This document shows, one piece after another, positions 7,661-22,022 of a stretch of DNA of 22,340 nucleotides; position 1 is the stretch's first letter, and every line of letters starts with the position of its first letter. The notes beneath the pieces were generated by a model. It did no database searches, was not told the origin of the DNA, and was given only the letters and a program-made list of their open reading frames with translations. The position numbers and the translations under genes are program-made. Source of the DNA: a virus. Location of the stretch: positions 1 to 22,340 of IMG/VR virus record IMGVR_UViG_3300046007_005142; one strand, 5' to 3'.

Positions 7661-9526
7661 TTAAATTTCACACGCTCCGGCCACACAGGCTAACATCTGT
7701 GCGCCCTCCACGTTATCTGTCTGCTCCTGAAACAAACTCCAATCAATCTTTGGAACACGAGCCTTCAGCTCGTTGTACTGCTCCTCCGTGCACTCCTCAT
7801 ACGGCGCCTGGCGGTACGTGCCACCATCATAAGGCAAGAAGCTTACACCAGAGATCTCGTCGAAGTGATCCCACACCCACGCGCCAACCGAGGGCCAATC
7901 TTTCTCTTCCACCGAGATTGTAACAGATGGTTTGTGCTCGCACCAGTGGCGCTGATACGCGAGCCAGGTTTCCAGGTGTTTAATCGGGCTCACATCGTCC
8001 CGCACCAACCCGGCGGGGGCCTTCTGCGGGAAGCTGAAGACTACGGTTTGCGTCGGTTTGTAGACGCAAGCCTCCGACGGAACTCCCTGCTGGATAAGGA
8101 AGGATGATAGTGGATCTTTAATATCTCCCCGGACTCGTCTGATGTAGAACCTGGAGTGCCGAGGGTGTATCCCTGAAGCGGAATCAACAAGCTGCGAGAC
8201 CGTACCTGACGGCTTGACGCAAGTGATTGCAGCTGATTTCTCAATGCCAAGTTTTTCCGAATACTCATGATTTACCTTTCTAGTGTGTTCGCGAAGCGTG
8301 TCAAGAACGTCTTTCAGTCCCAAAACCATCATGTCATTGTCGAAGATACCCGTTAGCGACACTCCGAGCAATCTCTCCTCCTCGGTGTTGCGCTGCCACA
8401 CCTTTCGCAGATACGGAAACTTTGTAAAGGTGGACTGAATTGTTCCCAGTATCGTCGCCACCTCAACCTTATCCTTAAGAGTCTCCAGCGTATCGTCATG
8501 TCTTACCACCACCTCGGTAAGGTTACAAAACTGGTAGGGTCGCAGAATAATTTCGGAGCAAGGATTTGTACCGAAATCAAAATTAGGATCGCGATGGCTA
8601 TACTTGGCAACAGTTTTCTTAGCGGCTTCGCGATTAAATATGCCGCGCTCCCCAGAATGAGAATTATAAAGACTAAGCCATTCTTCCATAAACTTACCAA
8701 CTGTTGGTGTCTCTCCATAGACAGCCGAGTTGTTAGCGAGAGCACGGTGCGGTGCAGTTTCCCACCAAGGTCCAGATTTCGCATGTCGAATCCTTTCGTC
8801 GTCCAGGTCGGACAAAGAGATCATGGCCGAGCGGCGAACGCCGCCCACAACCACAACCTCGCCAATTTTGCACATCAGATCATGGCACTCCAGGGTGTTT
8901 AGCTTTCGTCCCTGGGCGTTCTTGAAGGTGTTAACCGCGAACGAGAATAGGTCCACGAGGGGTCCCGGTCCGCTAGCTCTGCCCCCGAAGGTTTTGAGTC
9001 TGGCGCCAGCTGGTCGGATCTTGCTGACGTCCCACTTAGGTACTTCGCCAGCGTATAGATGCGCGATAAGGAGCCGGAGGGCTTTTGCCCACCCTTCTTT
9101 TGAGTCGTGGACAGCGATAACATGTTCGCTTTCAAAAAGCTTTTCCGGCACGTCGGGCAGCTGAGAAGTGTATTTAGATTCAACGCTGAACCCGACGCCA
9201 GTACCGCAGAGCAGGATGAACATAGCTTCATCGAAAGACTTCGGGTCGTCGACGGGGAGATACGAACAATTGTAGATACAGGTGTTGTCACGGTCTGCGC
9301 TCCTTCCGGCTGTCATCATGGCGCGCATCGAGGGCATGACCTTCATGTCGTAGATTGCCTTGTAGATGCGATCCTTGAGTTCTGTGTTGTCCTTAATCGC
9401 CGGGGTGCGTGAGAAGACGTAGTCAACGTACCGCGCTACGGTCTCGCCCCACTGCTCGCGGCGGCCCTTGTCGTCAATGAATCGGGCGTAACGGCTGGCT
9501 GCAATGTATTCTTGGTATTGATCCAT
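7661..9526 (-). CDS. nrdJ: Adenosylcobalamin-dependent (class II) ribonucleoside-triphosphate reductase
   Basis: 621 aa, reducing ribonucleotides to deoxyribonucleotides for phage DNA synthesis using coenzyme B12 as radical source. The sequence follows the monomeric Lactobacillus leichmannii-type enzyme: RREQWGETVARYVDYV near the start, IRPAGARL and SGPGPLVDLF (185-194), and NPCSEI (321-326) with the thiyl Cys323 and Glu325. Cys87 and Cys334 are the likely redox pair, and the C-terminal C614/C619 pair (CVAGAC) reloads electrons. The spacing of 11 between Cys323 and Cys334 matches the family. No separate small subunit is needed. The ATG at 9526 has a weak purine-rich site upstream. The host must supply or import cobalamin. 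Confidence 0.97.
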   Translation of the reverse strand: MDQYQEYIAASRYARFIDDKGRREQWGETVARYVDYVFSRTPAIKDNTELKDRIYKAIYDMKVMPSMRAMMTAGRSADRDNTCIYNCSYLPVDDPKSFDEAMFILLCGTGVGFSVESKYTSQLPDVPEKLFESEHVIAVHDSKEGWAKALRLLIAHLYAGEVPKWDVSKIRPAGARLKTFGGRASGPGPLVDLFSFAVNTFKNAQGRKLNTLECHDLMCKIGEVVVVGGVRRSAMISLSDLDDERIRHAKSGPWWETAPHRALANNSAVYGETPTVGKFMEEWLSLYNSHSGERGIFNREAAKKTVAKYSHRDPNFDFGTNPCSEIILRPYQFCNLTEVVVRHDDTLETLKDKVEVATILGTIQSTFTKFPYLRKVWQRNTEEERLLGVSLTGIFDNDMMVLGLKDVLDTLREHTRKVNHEYSEKLGIEKSAAITCVKPSGTVSQLVDSASGIHPRHSRFYIRRVRGDIKDPLSSFLIQQGVPSEACVYKPTQTVVFSFPQKAPAGLVRDDVSPIKHLETWLAYQRHWCEHKPSVTISVEEKDWPSVGAWVWDHFDEISGVSFLPYDGGTYRQAPYEECTEEQYNELKARVPKIDWSLFQEQTDNVEGAQMLACVAGACEI

Positions 9527-13987: not shown

Positions 13988-15109
13988 TCATGTAGGGCTA
14001 AATAACGCTGCGGAATAGGTATTCCCCATCCCCGCCGCAAGGGAGAGCATGAGACCTTTGGGTGGCTTTTGTGGGAAAGACGTGAACTTATTATCATACT
14101 CGGTCCTATTTATAATTTCAGGGATAACGTCATTTTTTATATCGTTTAACAGCAAGCAGGTCTCCAGCAAACCACTGGCCCCCACGGTGTGGCCAATCCT
14201 TTGCTTGTACGACGTGGCCACAAAATCATCAAAGTAGTGCTCGATCGCTGAACGCTCCGACAAATTGTTAATTAACGTGCCGGTGCCGTGCGTCTTAATT
14301 ATCTTGATCTCTCCGTGGTCAAACCCTTTTGTCGCGCCCTCTATGGCTCGCTTGTAGCCCTTTCCGTCTGCGCGCTGGCCCAGCGGGTTAGTGTTATCCT
14401 CGGCAGCTGTGTAAGCGCCAAGCAGCTCAGCACGGACCGGGGAGTCGCAAGCGGCCACTGACCTCTCCGACTCGAACACGGCTAGAACGCCACCCTGGCC
14501 AAGATAGAACCCTCCGTTGCTGGAATCAAACGCAGAGGGCCGAGCACCCTTTTCGTAATCGTCCAGGCAGATGTTGGCCTTCGCCGAGCCAAAGAAGTTA
14601 AGCACCGTGTTGCATATCGAGTCCTCTATCCCGAGCACGTACACTCGGTCGAAGTCGTAGTCGCGTATGAGGTGCCTCACGTCCATCATAACTTTTAGGC
14701 TTGACGCGCAGGTGCTGGCATCGGTCGCCACGTAGTCGTTGGCGCTTAGCTGCGACGCTACCCTGGCCCCAAATATGTTGGTGACGTTTAGCACCTCGAC
14801 CTTGTACGAGTACGCAAGAGAGTTGGTGAGGCACTTATCGTACAGCGGAACGCCTCCGGTCCCCCACACCTGAGACCCACCAGCAAGTATGAACCCCACC
14901 TTGCCAGGCGCCTTGTTCTTGCAGACGTGCTCTATGATGCTCGGGGTAATCAAGCGGTCGACAACCCTCTTGGGCGCCTGGAACATGCCCGTCTTGGTCT
15001 TTTCATAGGTCTCGGGGAACCAGTGCACTCGTTGGGGGAACACGGCGTCTGAGATCACATGGGTCTCCTCCGTGCTCATGGTCTCGTACTTGGTCAGGTA
15101 GATTCTCAT
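13988..15109 (-). CDS. Beta-ketoacyl-ACP synthase (KAS I/II, FabF-like condensing enzyme)
   Basis: 373 aa, a thiolase-fold condensing enzyme that would join an acyl chain to malonyl-ACP by decarboxylative condensation. The active-site set is complete: Cys134 in TDASTCASS, His274 in KTHGTGTLINN, and His307 in KQRIGHTVGASGLLE with the conserved Lys302. The RPSAFDSSNGGFYLGQGGVLAVFE block (190-213) matches the RPFD-GF-GEG block of FabF. The usual GFGGTN near the C-terminus is changed to GMGNTY (360-365), placing Met where the FabF gate Phe sits. It is shorter than typical FabF (about 410). The ATG overlaps the ACP stop (ATGA) and has no Shine-Dalgarno of its own, implying translation coupled to ACP. 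A FabH-type enzyme (Cys-His-Asn) is excluded by the second His. Confidence 0.93.
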   Translation of the reverse strand: MRIYLTKYETMSTEETHVISDAVFPQRVHWFPETYEKTKTGMFQAPKRVVDRLITPSIIEHVCKNKAPGKVGFILAGGSQVWGTGGVPLYDKCLTNSLAYSYKVEVLNVTNIFGARVASQLSANDYVATDASTCASSLKVMMDVRHLIRDYDFDRVYVLGIEDSICNTVLNFFGSAKANICLDDYEKGARPSAFDSSNGGFYLGQGGVLAVFESERSVAACDSPVRAELLGAYTAAEDNTNPLGQRADGKGYKRAIEGATKGFDHGEIKIIKTHGTGTLINNLSERSAIEHYFDDFVATSYKQRIGHTVGASGLLETCLLLNDIKNDVIPEIINRTEYDNKFTSFPQKPPKGLMLSLAAGMGNTYSAALFSPT

Positions 15110-16770: not shown

Positions 16771-17158
16771 TTAGTACTTCCTTTCGTTTGTCGTGTAGCC
16801 AGTCGGCTACGGCGTACAGTTCTTTTTCGGTGACGTCTTGTTTTATCTTGTTGGCCCAATGAGAGATGAACACTACATTCCCCTCAACATATCCAAGCTC
16901 TGGTATTACTCTGTCAAGAGATGGGGCATAAGGTCCTCTGGATTTGCCATGGCCCCTGCCGGACCTCCCCCAAACAAAAGGCATCTTAAAAATAGGACAC
17001 TCGTCCGTTGCTATAGACTCAATGTGCTCGATCGTTAAATTAAATGGTATGTTTTTTAATCTAGCCCTCTGCATCGCAGCGTTTCTGTAAGACTTTAGAT
17101 GACCTTTCTTCGTTGAAAAGTAGTTCGCCCAATAAGTTTTTTCCTTGAATGAACTCAT
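16601..17158 (-). CDS. HNH-type endonuclease (homing endonuclease-like)
   Basis: 185 aa from the ATG at 17158, with AAGGAGG six bases upstream; the TTG codon just before it is not needed. Residues about 15-40 (HLKSYRNAAMQRARLKNIPF) and 41-60 (LTIEHIESIATDECPIFKMP) fit the N-terminal part. SLDRVIPELGYVEGNVVFISHWANKIK (80-106) carries the D-N-N pattern of phage HNH enzymes. From about residue 130 the product is a Pro/Gly-rich tail read out of frame from the helicase gene, which it overlaps by 170 bases; it also overlaps the VRR-NUC gene by 98. Such genes are often mobile, and the overlaps are consistent with insertion between VRR-NUC and helicase. Confidence 0.85.
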   Translation of the reverse strand: MSSFKEKTYWANYFSTKKGHLKSYRNAAMQRARLKNIPFNLTIEHIESIATDECPIFKMPFVWGRSGRGHGKSRGPYAPSLDRVIPELGYVEGNVVFISHWANKIKQDVTEKELYAVADWLHDKRKEVLNAFKEQPTPVPRPPDTPGRKGPAHGAVHGAGPGEDCDGSHHYQANPELGSDFGHCT

Positions 17159-17402
17159 CAACGTCCTCCTTAGACCTTAAGACGGTTACCGGAAAGCCTA
17201 GATCTGATAATTCTTTGAACACGACGTGCTGCCTTGCTGACAGCTTTCCCTTCTCTGTTTTTAGCTCGACCAGGTGGATCTGATTTTTCAGAAACACAAT
17301 CCGATCCGGGACCCCCGTTATCGTGCTTATCCACTTTAGGCTGAGACCCCCCAGCTCCTTGACTCTTTTGCCTAGATGCTGCTCGATTCTCTTTTCTAGC
17401 AT
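17061..17402 (-). CDS. VRR-NUC domain nuclease
   Basis: 113 aa from the ATG at 17402 with GGAG ten bases upstream; an in-frame TTG at 17411 has no proper spacing. The VRR-NUC signature is present: an N-terminal acidic helix (MLEKRIEQHL), GVPDRIVF (D33), VELKTEKGKLSARQ (E46, K48, Q58) and FPVTVLRS at the end of the core (70-77). VRR-NUC enzymes cleave structured DNA, such as Holliday junctions in phage recombination, using a PD-(D/E)XK-like active site. The last 30 residues overlap the HNH gene. It sits in the replication operon beside the helicase, in keeping with a junction-processing role. Confidence 0.9.
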   Translation of the reverse strand: MLEKRIEQHLGKRVKELGGLSLKWISTITGVPDRIVFLKNQIHLVELKTEKGKLSARQHVVFKELSDLGFPVTVLRSKEDVDEFIQGKNLLGELLFNEERSSKVLQKRCDAEG

Positions 17403-17796
17403 TCTTATCAATCTCCACTTGGATGCCCGTCGTGATCTGCTTGACGATGTGCTCGGTCAGGTACGCGCGCGACTCCTCGCCGATCTCGTCCGGTGCCTCG
17501 CCGATGTGCTCGAATATCCTGCACACACAGTGCGTCGCCTCGTGCGCTATGACTCCGGCCAGGAACGCTGGGTCCTCGTCCACGCACTCCTTCAAATCGA
17601 ACGCCATGATGATCACGGCGTGCTTGCCGTCGGTCAGGTAGTGTGTCTCGGCGATCCCCTCGTCTAGCGCGGTCGCCTTCTCCGCGATGCCGTGATCCGC
17701 GAGGACCTTCTGGAACATCTCGTTGGAAAAGCAGAGCTTGATCTGCGATGGGAAGTGCCCGCAGTCGACGTGATAGTAACCCCAGTTCTTAGGCAT
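17170..17796 (-). CDS. HEXXH zinc metallopeptidase-like protein
   Basis: 208 aa from the ATG at 17796, which overlaps the previous stop by 8 bases; a longer in-frame frame to 17916 is a shadow of the upstream gene. Residues 83-91 (IAHEATHCV) contain HEATH (H85, E86, H89), and GEES (106-109) 17 residues later gives a candidate third zinc ligand, as in small phage and SprT/ImmA-like peptidases. The N-terminal 80 residues include CxxH and Cys residues (D11-C12-G-H). From about residue 132 the product overlaps the VRR-NUC gene out of frame for 233 bases. The substrate is unknown; cleavage of a host regulator is one possibility. Confidence 0.8.
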   Translation of the reverse strand: MPKNWGYYHVDCGHFPSQIKLCFSNEMFQKVLADHGIAEKATALDEGIAETHYLTDGKHAVIIMAFDLKECVDEDPAFLAGVIAHEATHCVCRIFEHIGEAPDEIGEESRAYLTEHIVKQITTGIQVEIDKNARKENRAASRQKSQGAGGSQPKVDKHDNGGPGSDCVSEKSDPPGRAKNREGKAVSKAARRVQRIIRSRLSGNRLKV

Positions 17797-17989
17797 CCGA
17801 TATAACCCCTGATATGCGTTGATTGTAGCGGGGGCTGATGATCTGGACCCCGTCCTCCTTTGTAAACCGGCAATAGCAGACCCCGTGCTCCTCCATGAGG
17901 TCCAGTACCTTCGCAAACGCTAGGTCGGCGTCGGTCTGGGTCTGCGCCTTGAGCAGGTCCGCAAGGCTAAGCGTGGTTACTTTTGGCAT
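17789..17989 (-). CDS. Small hypothetical protein, 66 aa
   Basis: ATG at 17989 with GAGGAG ten bases upstream; the frame continues to 18244 only as an antisense-like shadow rich in Arg. The product begins MPKVTTLSLADLLKAQTQ, has a helical middle, then HGVCYCRFTKEDGVQIISP. It overlaps the DUF1289 gene by 23 bases and the peptidase start by 8. Its two cysteines (CYC) are too few for a zinc finger. Function unknown. Confidence 0.72.
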   Translation of the reverse strand: MPKVTTLSLADLLKAQTQTDADLAFAKVLDLMEEHGVCYCRFTKEDGVQIISPRYNQRISGVISDA

Positions 17990-18230
17990 TTTGTTTGCGC
18001 TCCTCTGTGTTCTTGAGGATGCGCTGCTTTTCGTCCTCGTTTGAGAATCCCCACGTGGAGATCTCGTCCATGGTCCGATAACAGCCGCGGCATATATTTG
18101 CCGCGTAGTCCATGTCGCACACGTCCACGCACGGGGAGCTGGTGCCGCCGAATATGCGGTCCCAGCTCTTGTCGAACGTGGCCTGGTCCAGCACCGGACG
18201 GTGCCGCGATCCCTTACCTGCCTCTGCCAT
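17967..18230 (-). CDS. DUF1289-like four-cysteine protein
   Basis: 87 aa from the ATG at 18230, with GGGAGGA five bases upstream. Residues 33-60 (PCVDVCDMDYAANICRGCYR, then TMDEISTW) carry the DUF1289 signature, with C34, C38, C47 and C50 likely binding a metal ion. The rest is charged and helical (NEDEKQRILKNTEERKQNAK). DUF1289 proteins are small bacterial and phage proteins of unknown function, often thought to be iron-sulfur or zinc-binding. The flanking genes are coupled by overlap, so it is an early gene. Confidence 0.88.
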   Translation of the reverse strand: MAEAGKGSRHRPVLDQATFDKSWDRIFGGTSSPCVDVCDMDYAANICRGCYRTMDEISTWGFSNEDEKQRILKNTEERKQNAKSNHA

Positions 18231-19020: not shown

Positions 19021-19391
19021 ATTTTCTCCAGTATGACGAACGCGACAACGTCGCGGTGATTGTCCGTGATTGTAACGTGCGCGCGGTTTGGAAACAAGCC
19101 AGGCTTTTCTATGCGCAGCTCGGGCTTACCCTTGAAGTCGTTCAGTATCTGGACGTCTCTCAGGTCCATCTCCGGGGTGATGCCCGTGCCCAGCGCCTTC
19201 AGCGCGGCCTCCTTCGCCGCGAACCGGCGAGCCAGGTAGCTCACCGACATTGCGCGGTTGTCGGAGATCTGCGCGAAGTAGTCCAGCTCGAGCTTGCCCA
19301 GGATCCTGTGCACGAAAGCCCAGGACTGCTTTTTGTAGCAGTTGGCTATGTGCTCTACGCTGACAATGTCAGAACCTATCCCAATAATCAC
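19017..19391 (-). CDS. acpS: Holo-[acyl-carrier-protein] synthase (4'-phosphopantetheinyl transferase)
   Basis: 124 aa, close to the usual AcpS length. It transfers 4'-phosphopantetheine from CoA to the ACP serine. The family motifs are present: IGIGSDIVSVEHI (3-15, with D8 binding Mg) and RRFAAKEAALKALGTG (55-70, with E61 and K65), and a C-terminal HVTITDNHRDVVAFVILE strand pair. The GTG start at 19391 overlaps the primase stop (GTGA) and has GAGAGGA seven bases upstream, so its synthesis is coupled to the primase. The likely substrate is the phage ACP encoded 3.6 kb downstream in the same unit, though host ACP may also be used. This is the AcpS-type and not the larger Sfp-type enzyme. Confidence 0.95.
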   Translation of the reverse strand: MIIGIGSDIVSVEHIANCYKKQSWAFVHRILGKLELDYFAQISDNRAMSVSYLARRFAAKEAALKALGTGITPEMDLRDVQILNDFKGKPELRIEKPGLFPNRAHVTITDNHRDVVAFVILEKI

Positions 19392-21688
19392 AGCGCGTCC
19401 TCTCTCATAAGTGAATCGTTGAGGCTGTCCACGTAGGTCTGAGCCTTTTGTGTGAGCCGTATGCCCTGGTACACCTGGACCCTGCCACCGTCCTCGCGAA
19501 CCTCCGCGGCACGTATCGGCTTGTCGCCGGTCGCCGCCAGGAACTTGCGCTTGAACGTTAGGTCGGTGCCCGGGTGAATGCCCTTATTGACTGACCACTT
19601 CTTGAAGACGTGGTACAGGTCGTCCTTGGGCACCTCGCCCAACGGGTCGAGCACGAGCACGTCATCAAAGAACGATCCGAGCGGGTTGGATAGCTCCTCC
19701 ATGACCCTCAGCAGCTCGGTACCTGACTTGGGCTGCTGGAACTTGCCACCACGTTCTGCCCTGCGCCGCAGGCCGACCATGCTCCAGTTAAATATCCCGG
19801 AGAGCTCCGCCTTTAGCTTGGCGGAGAGCTGCGTGTCCTCGCGCCCGTAGAACGAGTTCGTCATCTTGAGAACGATCATACGGCCCGTGAGAGCGTTGCT
19901 GTTCTCTGTGAGCTGCATGACCTCGTTCGAGTAGATCACGATACGCGTTGGCAGGTACCCGTTCCAGGCCTCCTTGTTCTTGCGGTTCACAGTGACGGTA
20001 TCACCACCAACAATACGCAGAAGCTGAGAAACAACAGCAGAGCGGTTCCTCTCCGGCGCACGCGCGTCCGTAAACGATGCAAGTAGCTTGCCAAGCCATG
20101 GCTGTAGTCCGAACGTGTCACAGAGCTCTCCCAGTTCCGGCGCGACCGTGTTGTGCTGACCGAGCAGGTCCACGAGCACCTTGTTAATTGTTCCCTTGCC
20201 CGATCGGCGGGGTCCGATGATGTTAAAGAACTTCTGCTGGTCGGTCTCGCCCGAGAGTATGTACCCGAAGATCTCCTGCAGCGTGTCGATCGACTCGCGG
20301 TCGTAACCCCACAGCTGCTCGAGAAATCCCTCCCACACCGGGCACTTGGCCTCCGGGTCGTACTCGAACGGCAGGCTGTTCAGCGTGAAGAACCCGAGCG
20401 TGTGCGGCAGGAGCACCGAGTCCTCGAGGTGGAAGAGCCCGTTCTTCAGGCTGATCAGCTTCGAGGCCTCCGGCCGGTTCTTCTCGAACCCCGCGAGCCA
20501 CACCGGCGGGTGCGAGTGCGCGGCCTGGGGCAGGTGCGTCAGCGCCTGCAGAGCGTCAATCGCCGCGCTCACCGATGGCGGGGTCGGGGCGAACGGTATC
20601 AGGTTCCCCCGGCGGTCGGTCTTCTTGCACTTGTTCAGGAAGTTGTACATCTTCGACCGTATGGTCGCGTCCTCAACTGACTCGTAGCAGTTCCCCGTGT
20701 ACTTAAAGAACTCGGAGGCGTAGTGCACGAGCGTGGTCCCCTCCTCGTTCGTGTGCTCGGACTCTAGGTACTCGCCAGCGTGGCCGAGCGGGGCCGGGTC
20801 GAGCACTATATCACCCCGGGCGAGAGCCTCTGACTTTTTTACTTGGTTCACCTCGAATATGATCGAGCGCAGTGTCGAGCCCTTGCCCTTGGTGAAGCTG
20901 TCCCACTTCCTGGCGCACTCGCCGGGGTGGTAGCTACCCTCGGTGGTCGAGGACCAACGATCCCACGCCTCGCACGCCTCCACGTCCCCGTTGAACTGGT
21001 GGTGGAGCGCCATGCCCACGCGTAGCCAGTCCGCGTAACCGCAGTTGGCGTCCAGGTGAGCGAGAAGCTCCTCCTCGACACGCGCGACGTCGTACTCGGC
21101 CACGGGCGGTGTGTAGTCCGCGAACGCGTCCCCTGTGACCCGGACGGTGCGCTCGGGGATAAATGGGGACAGATCAATTGGGGACGCGGGAATGTCCCCA
21201 CCCAATTTTTGGCCTGTCACCGTGAAGTACCTTCCGCGTGGGTAGATCTCGAGGCCCTTCTCGTGGTCAACGTGCGCTGACTGGATGGCCGCCAGAGTGA
21301 ATATTTTGACGCCTGTGCCGCTCGGGGAGACCTCCAGGTACCCAGGTATCGACTGAGCCATTCTGGCGGCCTCTGGGCAGGTAAATTGGCCCTCAGCGTA
21401 GCAGTCGTCGAGGTCGACACCAACGAGCCCGTCGGATCCGTCGAATACGAAGCCCACACCGTCGAATCTGCCAGTCTGGTACGCGTTCTGCGCGGACAGA
21501 AAGTCTGTCCACGTGCCGGGGTTGGTGCTGCTCGCCGCGTGCATGTTCGACTGCACTGGCAGTTTGGACCAGCGACGGCTCTCTCCCTCCCCGATCTCCA
21601 CGAATCTCCACATGACCCACCTCGGGATCTTCTTGAGCTCGAACGGTATCCGCTCGAAGTCAACTGCAATTTTTGCCGGTTTTTCCAT
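19388..21688 (-). CDS. Primase-polymerase/helicase (AEP prim-pol N-terminus, PriCT-2, SF3 P4-type helicase)
   Basis: 766 aa, predicted to prime and unwind at the origin. Residues about 20-170 form the archaeo-eukaryotic primase-polymerase domain: PRWVMWRF, KLP, GVGFVFDGSDGLVGVDLDD (D92, D94), SPSGTGVKIF and EIYPRGRYFTVTG (E147 as third acidic residue), as in NrS-1-type phage enzymes. Residues about 198-285 match PriCT-2 (GYADWLRVGMALHHQFNGD). Residues 395-650 form the P4-family SF3 helicase, with Walker A IGPRRSGKGT (491-500), Walker B-like LLASFTDA and sensor VIYSNE (584-589). The C-terminal 100 residues form a winged-helix-like tail. The ATG at 21688 has GAGAGGAT seven bases upstream. It is the first large gene of the operon and sits beside an inverted repeat that may be its binding site. 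Confidence 0.95.
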   Translation of the reverse strand: MEKPAKIAVDFERIPFELKKIPRWVMWRFVEIGEGESRRWSKLPVQSNMHAASSTNPGTWTDFLSAQNAYQTGRFDGVGFVFDGSDGLVGVDLDDCYAEGQFTCPEAARMAQSIPGYLEVSPSGTGVKIFTLAAIQSAHVDHEKGLEIYPRGRYFTVTGQKLGGDIPASPIDLSPFIPERTVRVTGDAFADYTPPVAEYDVARVEEELLAHLDANCGYADWLRVGMALHHQFNGDVEACEAWDRWSSTTEGSYHPGECARKWDSFTKGKGSTLRSIIFEVNQVKKSEALARGDIVLDPAPLGHAGEYLESEHTNEEGTTLVHYASEFFKYTGNCYESVEDATIRSKMYNFLNKCKKTDRRGNLIPFAPTPPSVSAAIDALQALTHLPQAAHSHPPVWLAGFEKNRPEASKLISLKNGLFHLEDSVLLPHTLGFFTLNSLPFEYDPEAKCPVWEGFLEQLWGYDRESIDTLQEIFGYILSGETDQQKFFNIIGPRRSGKGTINKVLVDLLGQHNTVAPELGELCDTFGLQPWLGKLLASFTDARAPERNRSAVVSQLLRIVGGDTVTVNRKNKEAWNGYLPTRIVIYSNEVMQLTENSNALTGRMIVLKMTNSFYGREDTQLSAKLKAELSGIFNWSMVGLRRRAERGGKFQQPKSGTELLRVMEELSNPLGSFFDDVLVLDPLGEVPKDDLYHVFKKWSVNKGIHPGTDLTFKRKFLAATGDKPIRAAEVREDGGRVQVYQGIRLTQKAQTYVDSLNDSLMREDAL

Positions 21689-21703: not shown

Positions 21704-21826
21704 TGCCGGGGGTGCCGGGGGTTGCGGGGGTCTATATCGGGTCACTTCCAACTTTTATTTTACAAAAAAGAAAAAAGAAAATGAATAAGTACGTTTAGAC
21801 CCCCGCGACCCCCGGCATCGCCGGCA
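21704..21826. repeat. 31-bp GC-rich inverted repeat around an A/T-rich loop (candidate origin or control site)
   Basis: TGCCGG-GGG-TGCCGGGGGTTGCGGGGGTCTA (left arm 21704-21734) matches the complement of 21796-21826 at 28 of 31 positions; the inner 22 bp have one mismatch. The 61-base spacer is A/T-rich and contains a long purine tract on the plus strand (AAAAAAGAAAAAAGAAAATG). The left arm also has three GGGGG runs four bases apart and a later GGG, giving a possible G-quadruplex. It occupies the gap just upstream of the primase-helicase gene. A weak TAAAAT (complement of 21757-21762) could be a promoter -10, with no clear -35. I infer an origin or control element. Confidence 0.9.
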
Positions 21827-21827
21827 G

Positions 21828-22022
21828 TCACTCAGCGCAAAGGCCCTTGTTCTCCAAAAAGCGGGACACCCAAAGCCGGAACTCGTGCCGGTTCTTGGGG
21901 GTGTTCGGCTCGTCCTGCGTCCACAGGAAGTCGTAGGCGTGCTCGCCACCGGGGTGTGTCACCACGATCTTAAGCAGATCCCCCGACTCACCGTGCACCT
22001 CCGTCAGTATGACCTTGCTCAT
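21828..22022 (-). CDS. Small hypothetical protein, 64 aa
   Basis: The ATG at 22022 overlaps the methyltransferase stop (ATGA). The product starts MSKVILTEVHGESGDLLKIVV, contains HPGGEHAYDFLWTQDEPN and ends in a short helix (HEFRLWVSRFLENKGLCAE). It is acidic, with an alpha/beta composition. No family was recognised. It is separated from the primase gene by the inverted-repeat region. Confidence 0.75.
   Translation of the reverse strand: MSKVILTEVHGESGDLLKIVVTHPGGEHAYDFLWTQDEPNTPKNRHEFRLWVSRFLENKGLCAE

Follow-up and report, generated by a model that had tools for sequence, protein, structure and literature searches.

Facing 9-bp iteron arrays upstream of a PrimPol-helicase gene as a probable replication-origin module of a tailed phage

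We propose that a large inverted repeat just upstream of a primase-helicase gene is the replication-origin module of a tailed phage, built as iteron array, A/T-rich core and iteron array, and read by a phage-encoded initiator that is most likely the primase-helicase itself (probability roughly 0.7). The DNA analyzed, referred to here as the window, is a virus record of 22,340 bp that is not a complete genome. Origin function and iteron binding are what we infer from comparative anatomy, which leaves the origin idea, as read from sequence, well supported: an AT-rich stretch has a set of short tandem repeats on either side, and the adjacent gene encodes a D5-like SF3 helicase, the proposed initiator, fused to a primase. 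An earlier note had offered the repeat as a possible origin, operator or site for the primase-helicase; conserved architecture argues, short of proof, for the origin and for the primase-helicase site.

The inverted repeat and its tandem units

The inverted repeat at 21704-21826 has 31-nt arms that are complementary at 28 of 31 positions (90%) and that enclose a 61-nt core, as the earlier note had described. It is the strongest inverted repeat of the window, with a score of 22 as compared with a maximum of 14 and a mean of 11.5 in 40 order-1 Markov shuffles of the window. The arms are 77% G+C and the core is 74% A+T. Within each arm, three 9-bp units stand in tandem ahead of a short CTA, with the GT ends toward the core. 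The element sits between the ORF for a 64-amino acid protein (p64) and the start of the primase-helicase ORF, both of which are on the minus strand. The features of this region are as follows.

21704-21734, plus strand: primase-proximal arm, with iterons at 21705-21713 and 21714-21722 (both GCCGGGGGT) and at 21723-21731 (TGCGGGGGT), then CTA
21735-21795, no strand assigned: A/T-rich core of 61 nt, strand-asymmetric, with a T-rich half and an A-rich half; proposed DNA-unwinding element
21796-21826, minus strand: distal arm, with iterons at 21799-21807 (CGCGGGGGT), 21808-21816 (GCCGGGGGT) and 21817-21825 (GCCGGCGAT, degenerate)
21828-22022, minus strand: p64 ORF (64 aa), directly upstream of the element; alternative candidate factor
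19388-21688, minus strand: primase-helicase ORF (766 aa), with NrS-1-like PrimPol, PriCT_2, D5_N/SF3 helicase and C-terminal winged helix (Pfam, PHROGs, AlphaFold2, Foldseek)
19391-19828, minus strand: segment for residues 621-766, the predicted winged-helix region (AlphaFold2; Foldseek to RFX DNA-binding domain; Pfam Pox_D5)

Judged by its sequence, the element is primarily a pair of iteron arrays and not primarily a hairpin. The informative feature is the 9-bp repetition, rather than the hairpin or the G runs that the earlier note had singled out. The GGGGG runs are evenly spaced because each arm is made of three tandem 9-bp units; they occur in some lineages only, and arms with the TGCACAGGT unit contain none. 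No arm holds more than three G5 runs, which falls short of the four that a canonical G-quadruplex inside a single arm requires, and the suggested quadruplex was abandoned. Three exact 9-mers of the arms were checked for copies elsewhere, and none occurs in the window outside the element. A turning point in GC skew, which had been put forward as a check on origin function, is not seen at the module: in the window and the long relatives alike, skew goes with gene direction, and for that reason, and because the record is not a complete genome, it is uninformative here. Comparison with known RNA families in Rfam yielded only plant microRNA precursors, far below gathering scores, as is expected of any long hairpin.

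Elsewhere in the window, on the minus strand, an ORF at 13988-15109 has the N- and C-terminal domains of a beta-ketoacyl synthase, which is unusual phage cargo, and a gene at 7661-9526 encodes a B12-dependent (class II) ribonucleotide reductase.

Period-9 arrays and paired modules in related phages

A protein search with the primase returned 80 related viral loci, which were scanned mechanically, at a strict threshold, for facing tandem arrays flanking an A/T-rich spacer. Facing period-9 arrays were found in 37 of the 80 loci. The same scan found no facing arrays at periods 7, 8, 10, 11 or 12 in any of the 80, and no period-9 facing arrays in block-shuffled sequence. Among the scan-negative loci, some stop short of the upstream region, and in others inspection by eye shows arrays that are degenerate or unequal. 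Most of the 80 loci show the window's layout, with the module just upstream of the SF3 primase-helicase gene, often with a wholly different word, and the composition and position of the core are the same in relatives. Absence from close relatives had been named as evidence that would count against an origin; the element is retained in relatives whose protein identity is as low as 58-65%. Counting the window, 35 of the loci that were examined have a p64 homologue upstream of the primase.

The 9-bp unit is nearly uniform inside one phage and differs among lineages (for instance TGCGGGGGT, TGCACAGGT, TGTCAGGGT, AGACACAGA and TGTCACACT), the words found in relatives including the last four of these together with ATCCACAGT, GGCAAGGGT, AGCGCGGGT, AGTCACAGT and AGTACCACT. 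Arrays of ATCCACAGT resemble host DnaA boxes and other units (TGCGGGGGT) do not; a DnaA-like conserved host factor is disfavored as the reader, since the unit appears to drift too fast. Host assignment was set aside, as just two MAG contigs carry a label (uncultured beta proteobacterium), which is insufficient. Separately, a conserved palindrome like TTTCACATTGTGAAA is found between the module and the primase start in L042, L046, L055, L057, L077 and L084.

Seven of nine long relative contigs have two modules, about 6 to 11 kb apart. One copy is at the primase and the other is upstream of an oppositely directed terminase operon; where this operon was read, its products are the large terminase and proteins of 108 and 330 aa. 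The interval between the two copies holds small genes together with a gene for a sigma factor. Using units read by hand, as they were for the covariation and mirrored-slot analyses below, we found that within a contig the arm units of the two modules match at 8.6 of 9 positions, versus 4.3 of 9 between contigs; among 5040 permutations, the true assignment alone reaches the observed sum (1/5040). Exact copies of the unit in the seven contigs number 54 inside modules and 2 outside. In the five contigs compared, the cores of paired modules are 58-84% identical (63-84% in the better-matching orientation) and most flanks are near chance. Because the cores are only partly alike and most flanks are near chance, the modules are best described as paralogous, with their arms kept in step. 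The recurrence of one unit in two distant modules argues for a trans-acting reader, and gene conversion may contribute to its uniformity across modules. The G002 cores match best as reverse complements, showing that the relative orientation of the modules varies. A second module of the window, if present, has been cut off, because the contig ends 514 bp past the first.

More tentatively, and with considerable doubt, we suggest that the recognition word of the paired origin is replaced quickly and as a whole, with the sites of both modules and the protein that reads them changing in concert. Such turnover is perhaps a way to evade satellites, rival phages or repressors that take advantage of the origin. 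In this doubtful reading the two modules would act together, for example with one serving as origin and the other, at the terminase operon, as a site for replication control or for a packaging switch.

Two further proteins were also noted. A protein of 320-330 aa is encoded just before the large terminase gene in contigs G010 (26827-27819) and G001 (17060-18031), and its N-terminus, judged by eye, may be a Hint/intein-type domain. A sigma-factor-like protein is encoded between the modules in contig G010 (L103-L106) at 20330-20971, with homologues in 32 loci.

Candidate readers of the iterons and alternative explanations

The earlier note had treated the adjacent gene product as a P4-family protein. 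Its primase half, however, is not P4 alpha-like and instead matches the archaeo-eukaryotic PrimPol of NrS-1. Pfam identifies the domains PriCT_2, D5_N and DUF5906, and the best Foldseek match to the N-terminal half of the predicted structure is NrS-1 PrimPol (PDB 6a9w); broader structural matches include ASFV PrimPol, monkeypox E5 and SaPI5 Rep (7ola, E 1.1e-6). AlphaFold2 confidence is low within the SF3 core. The C-terminal region, modeled separately, is predicted to be a winged helix with a mean pLDDT of 80, reaching 85-93 across most of the domain. According to Foldseek, it is closest to the RFX DNA-binding domain on DNA (TM 0.78 to target, 2.1 A), and it resembles Orc1/Cdc6 on origin DNA more weakly. 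A search of solved structures with the winged-helix sequence gave no significant match, and none to a solved P4 domain. On the basis of the model, we propose that the winged helix of residues 621-766 is the iteron-binding domain.

Covariation between proteins and iterons was examined in 29 non-redundant taxa. Divergence of the winged helix tracks divergence of the unit more than the remainder of the protein accounts for (partial r 0.28, 0/499); the other primase domains show no clear tracking in this set. The linked sigma factor and p64 track the unit at least as well (0.31 each), and in a joint regression these two are significant (11/999 and 9/999, respectively), whereas the winged helix is not (151/999). 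Faster-evolving linked proteins may simply track phylogeny better; in any case, covariation was discarded as a means of singling out the reader protein, its specificity for the winged helix being lost after the sigma and p64 controls. Locus L004 has TGCACAGGT iterons and a 5' region of the L008 type, yet its 3' region, including the winged helix, is of the window type, and the switch falls near nt 800 of the primase gene, in a stretch over which the two types hardly differ. If L004 is a true recombinant, it speaks against the winged-helix step; otherwise it is a chimera of the assembly. Because of L004 and of the sigma and p64 controls, the winged-helix assignment rests on fold and precedent and not on covariation.

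In the mechanism that we envisage, the PrimPol-helicase would bind the 9-bp sites through its C-terminal winged helix, with three initiator protomers per side facing inward. From the bound protomers, SF3 helicase rings would nucleate on either edge of the A/T core, which would melt, and the PrimPol domain would prime synthesis for extension by the phage family-A polymerase, probably in both directions. Given that the sites closely precede the initiator gene, their occupation may repress it as well.

The main rival to this origin model, which we regard as unlikely, is that the modules are a pair of operators at which a phage transcription regulator coordinates the early replication and late terminase operons, with replication starting elsewhere. 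It would account for modules placed upstream of oppositely directed operons (primase versus 108-aa/330-aa/terminase), and a possible regulator is at hand in the phage sigma factor encoded between them, whose divergence, like that of p64, tracks the unit. The promoter-like motif TTTGCATTAGTA or TTTGCGTATTAGT may be the target of this linked sigma factor, but in several relatives it stands outside the module, between module and primase gene, and it recurs elsewhere in the genomes without iterons. Moreover, a search of the window module for a sigma-70-type promoter found none, and six sites around a 60-70 nt A/T core exceed the needs of a simple operator.

Less probable still is a purely structural palindrome, in which a DNA cruciform or RNA hairpin acts in packaging, termination or replication pausing and the 9-bp repeats are products of slippage. 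The arms are able to pair over 31 bp, and pRN1, which also encodes a PrimPol-SF3-winged helix protein, uses a large stem-loop origin (PMC4234260). Mirrored slots in the arms agree at 8.07 of 9 positions as compared with 7.34 of 9 for unmirrored slots (0/2000), which suggests that some palindrome constraint, or template-switch repair, is also at work. Slippage, however, would not keep the period at precisely 9 while the units diverge, several relatives (such as L021, L024 and L026) have unequal arms or an unmirrored order of variants, a search for an intrinsic terminator in the window module was negative, and a hairpin needs no common word in modules kilobases apart. Finally, the facing arrays might serve a phage partition or resolution protein, or act as substrates on which the two modules recombine. 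This reading would fit two similar modules per genome with nearly identical arms and less similar cores, and gene conversion between modules would also yield concerted evolution, but this is very improbable given that no partition or resolvase gene was recognized among the few neighbors read, that relative module orientation differs (G002) and that the intervening segment varies from about 6 to 11 kb.

Because gene direction confounds skew, the origins of most environmental phages have yet to be located. The related contigs studied here supply a defined candidate origin along with its probable initiator. They also offer, beside homologous proteins, some ten different 9-bp words as a natural series, with which origin-initiator coevolution and the DNA-recognition code of D5-type winged helices become directly testable.

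Comparison with known replication systems

P4 has two cis sites kilobases apart, ori and crr. The modules described here resemble this arrangement in being two separate cis elements with common repeats, in seven of the nine long relative contigs. The P4 alpha protein, which binds origin repeats with a winged helix, is likewise a multidomain primase-SF3-winged helix protein, but its primase is of the bacterial TOPRIM type (PMC4234260), whereas an AEP PrimPol with PriCT_2 is found here. The NrS-1 PrimPol-helicase is similar in combining AEP PrimPol, PriCT/helix-bundle and helicase domains in one chain. NrS-1 has an 8-nt recognition site, two copies of which lie at the genome centre, the proposed origin (PMC7102993), and this site, TTTGGTTA, is a primase template signal (PMC8718748). 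It was rejected as the signal of the modules: TTTGGTTA is absent from the window and from G001, and in other contigs it is scattered without association with modules. ORF904 of pRN1 also has PrimPol, SF3 helicase and C-terminal winged helix, but the pRN1 origin has a large stem-loop and no iterons (PMC4234260).

A possible counterpart in a cultured phage came from a looser scan. Marinobacter phage PS6 (Casjensviridae) has facing 8-bp repeats (TTTGTCCC) around a non-coding spacer at L116 6106-6247, next to a related primase/helicase gene, and we consider them a candidate origin. They differ from the arrays described here in having a period of 8, in lying just 3' of the gene and in accompanying a primase that is only about 32% identical. 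In Alteromonas phage vB_AmaS-R9Y1, facing TTGTAACGC-like repeats were observed upstream of the primase/helicase, at L118 2328-2455.

The SaPI and PICI origins share with the present module two iteron sets, an AT-rich middle and an adjoining D5/SF3 primase-helicase gene (PMC6092414, PMC7581432). In the origins of Gram-negative PICIs an AT-rich region invariably lies between two sets of iterons, and plasmids can replicate from a segment of this kind (PMC6092414). SaPI Rep recognizes iterons with its C-terminal domain, and the isolated C-terminal domain of Cch2 binds its own origin repeats (PMC7581432); the counterpart of this origin-recognition domain here would be the predicted winged helix, our candidate reader. 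In the SaPI and PICI satellites the origin is immediately 3' of the rep gene, whereas here the candidate origin is 5' of the gene and in full-size phages. Also unlike those systems, the phages studied here have a 9-bp unit that is lineage-specific and a second module at the terminase operon. This second copy, which is not described for SaPI-type origins in the literature cited, suggests a link between replication and late functions.
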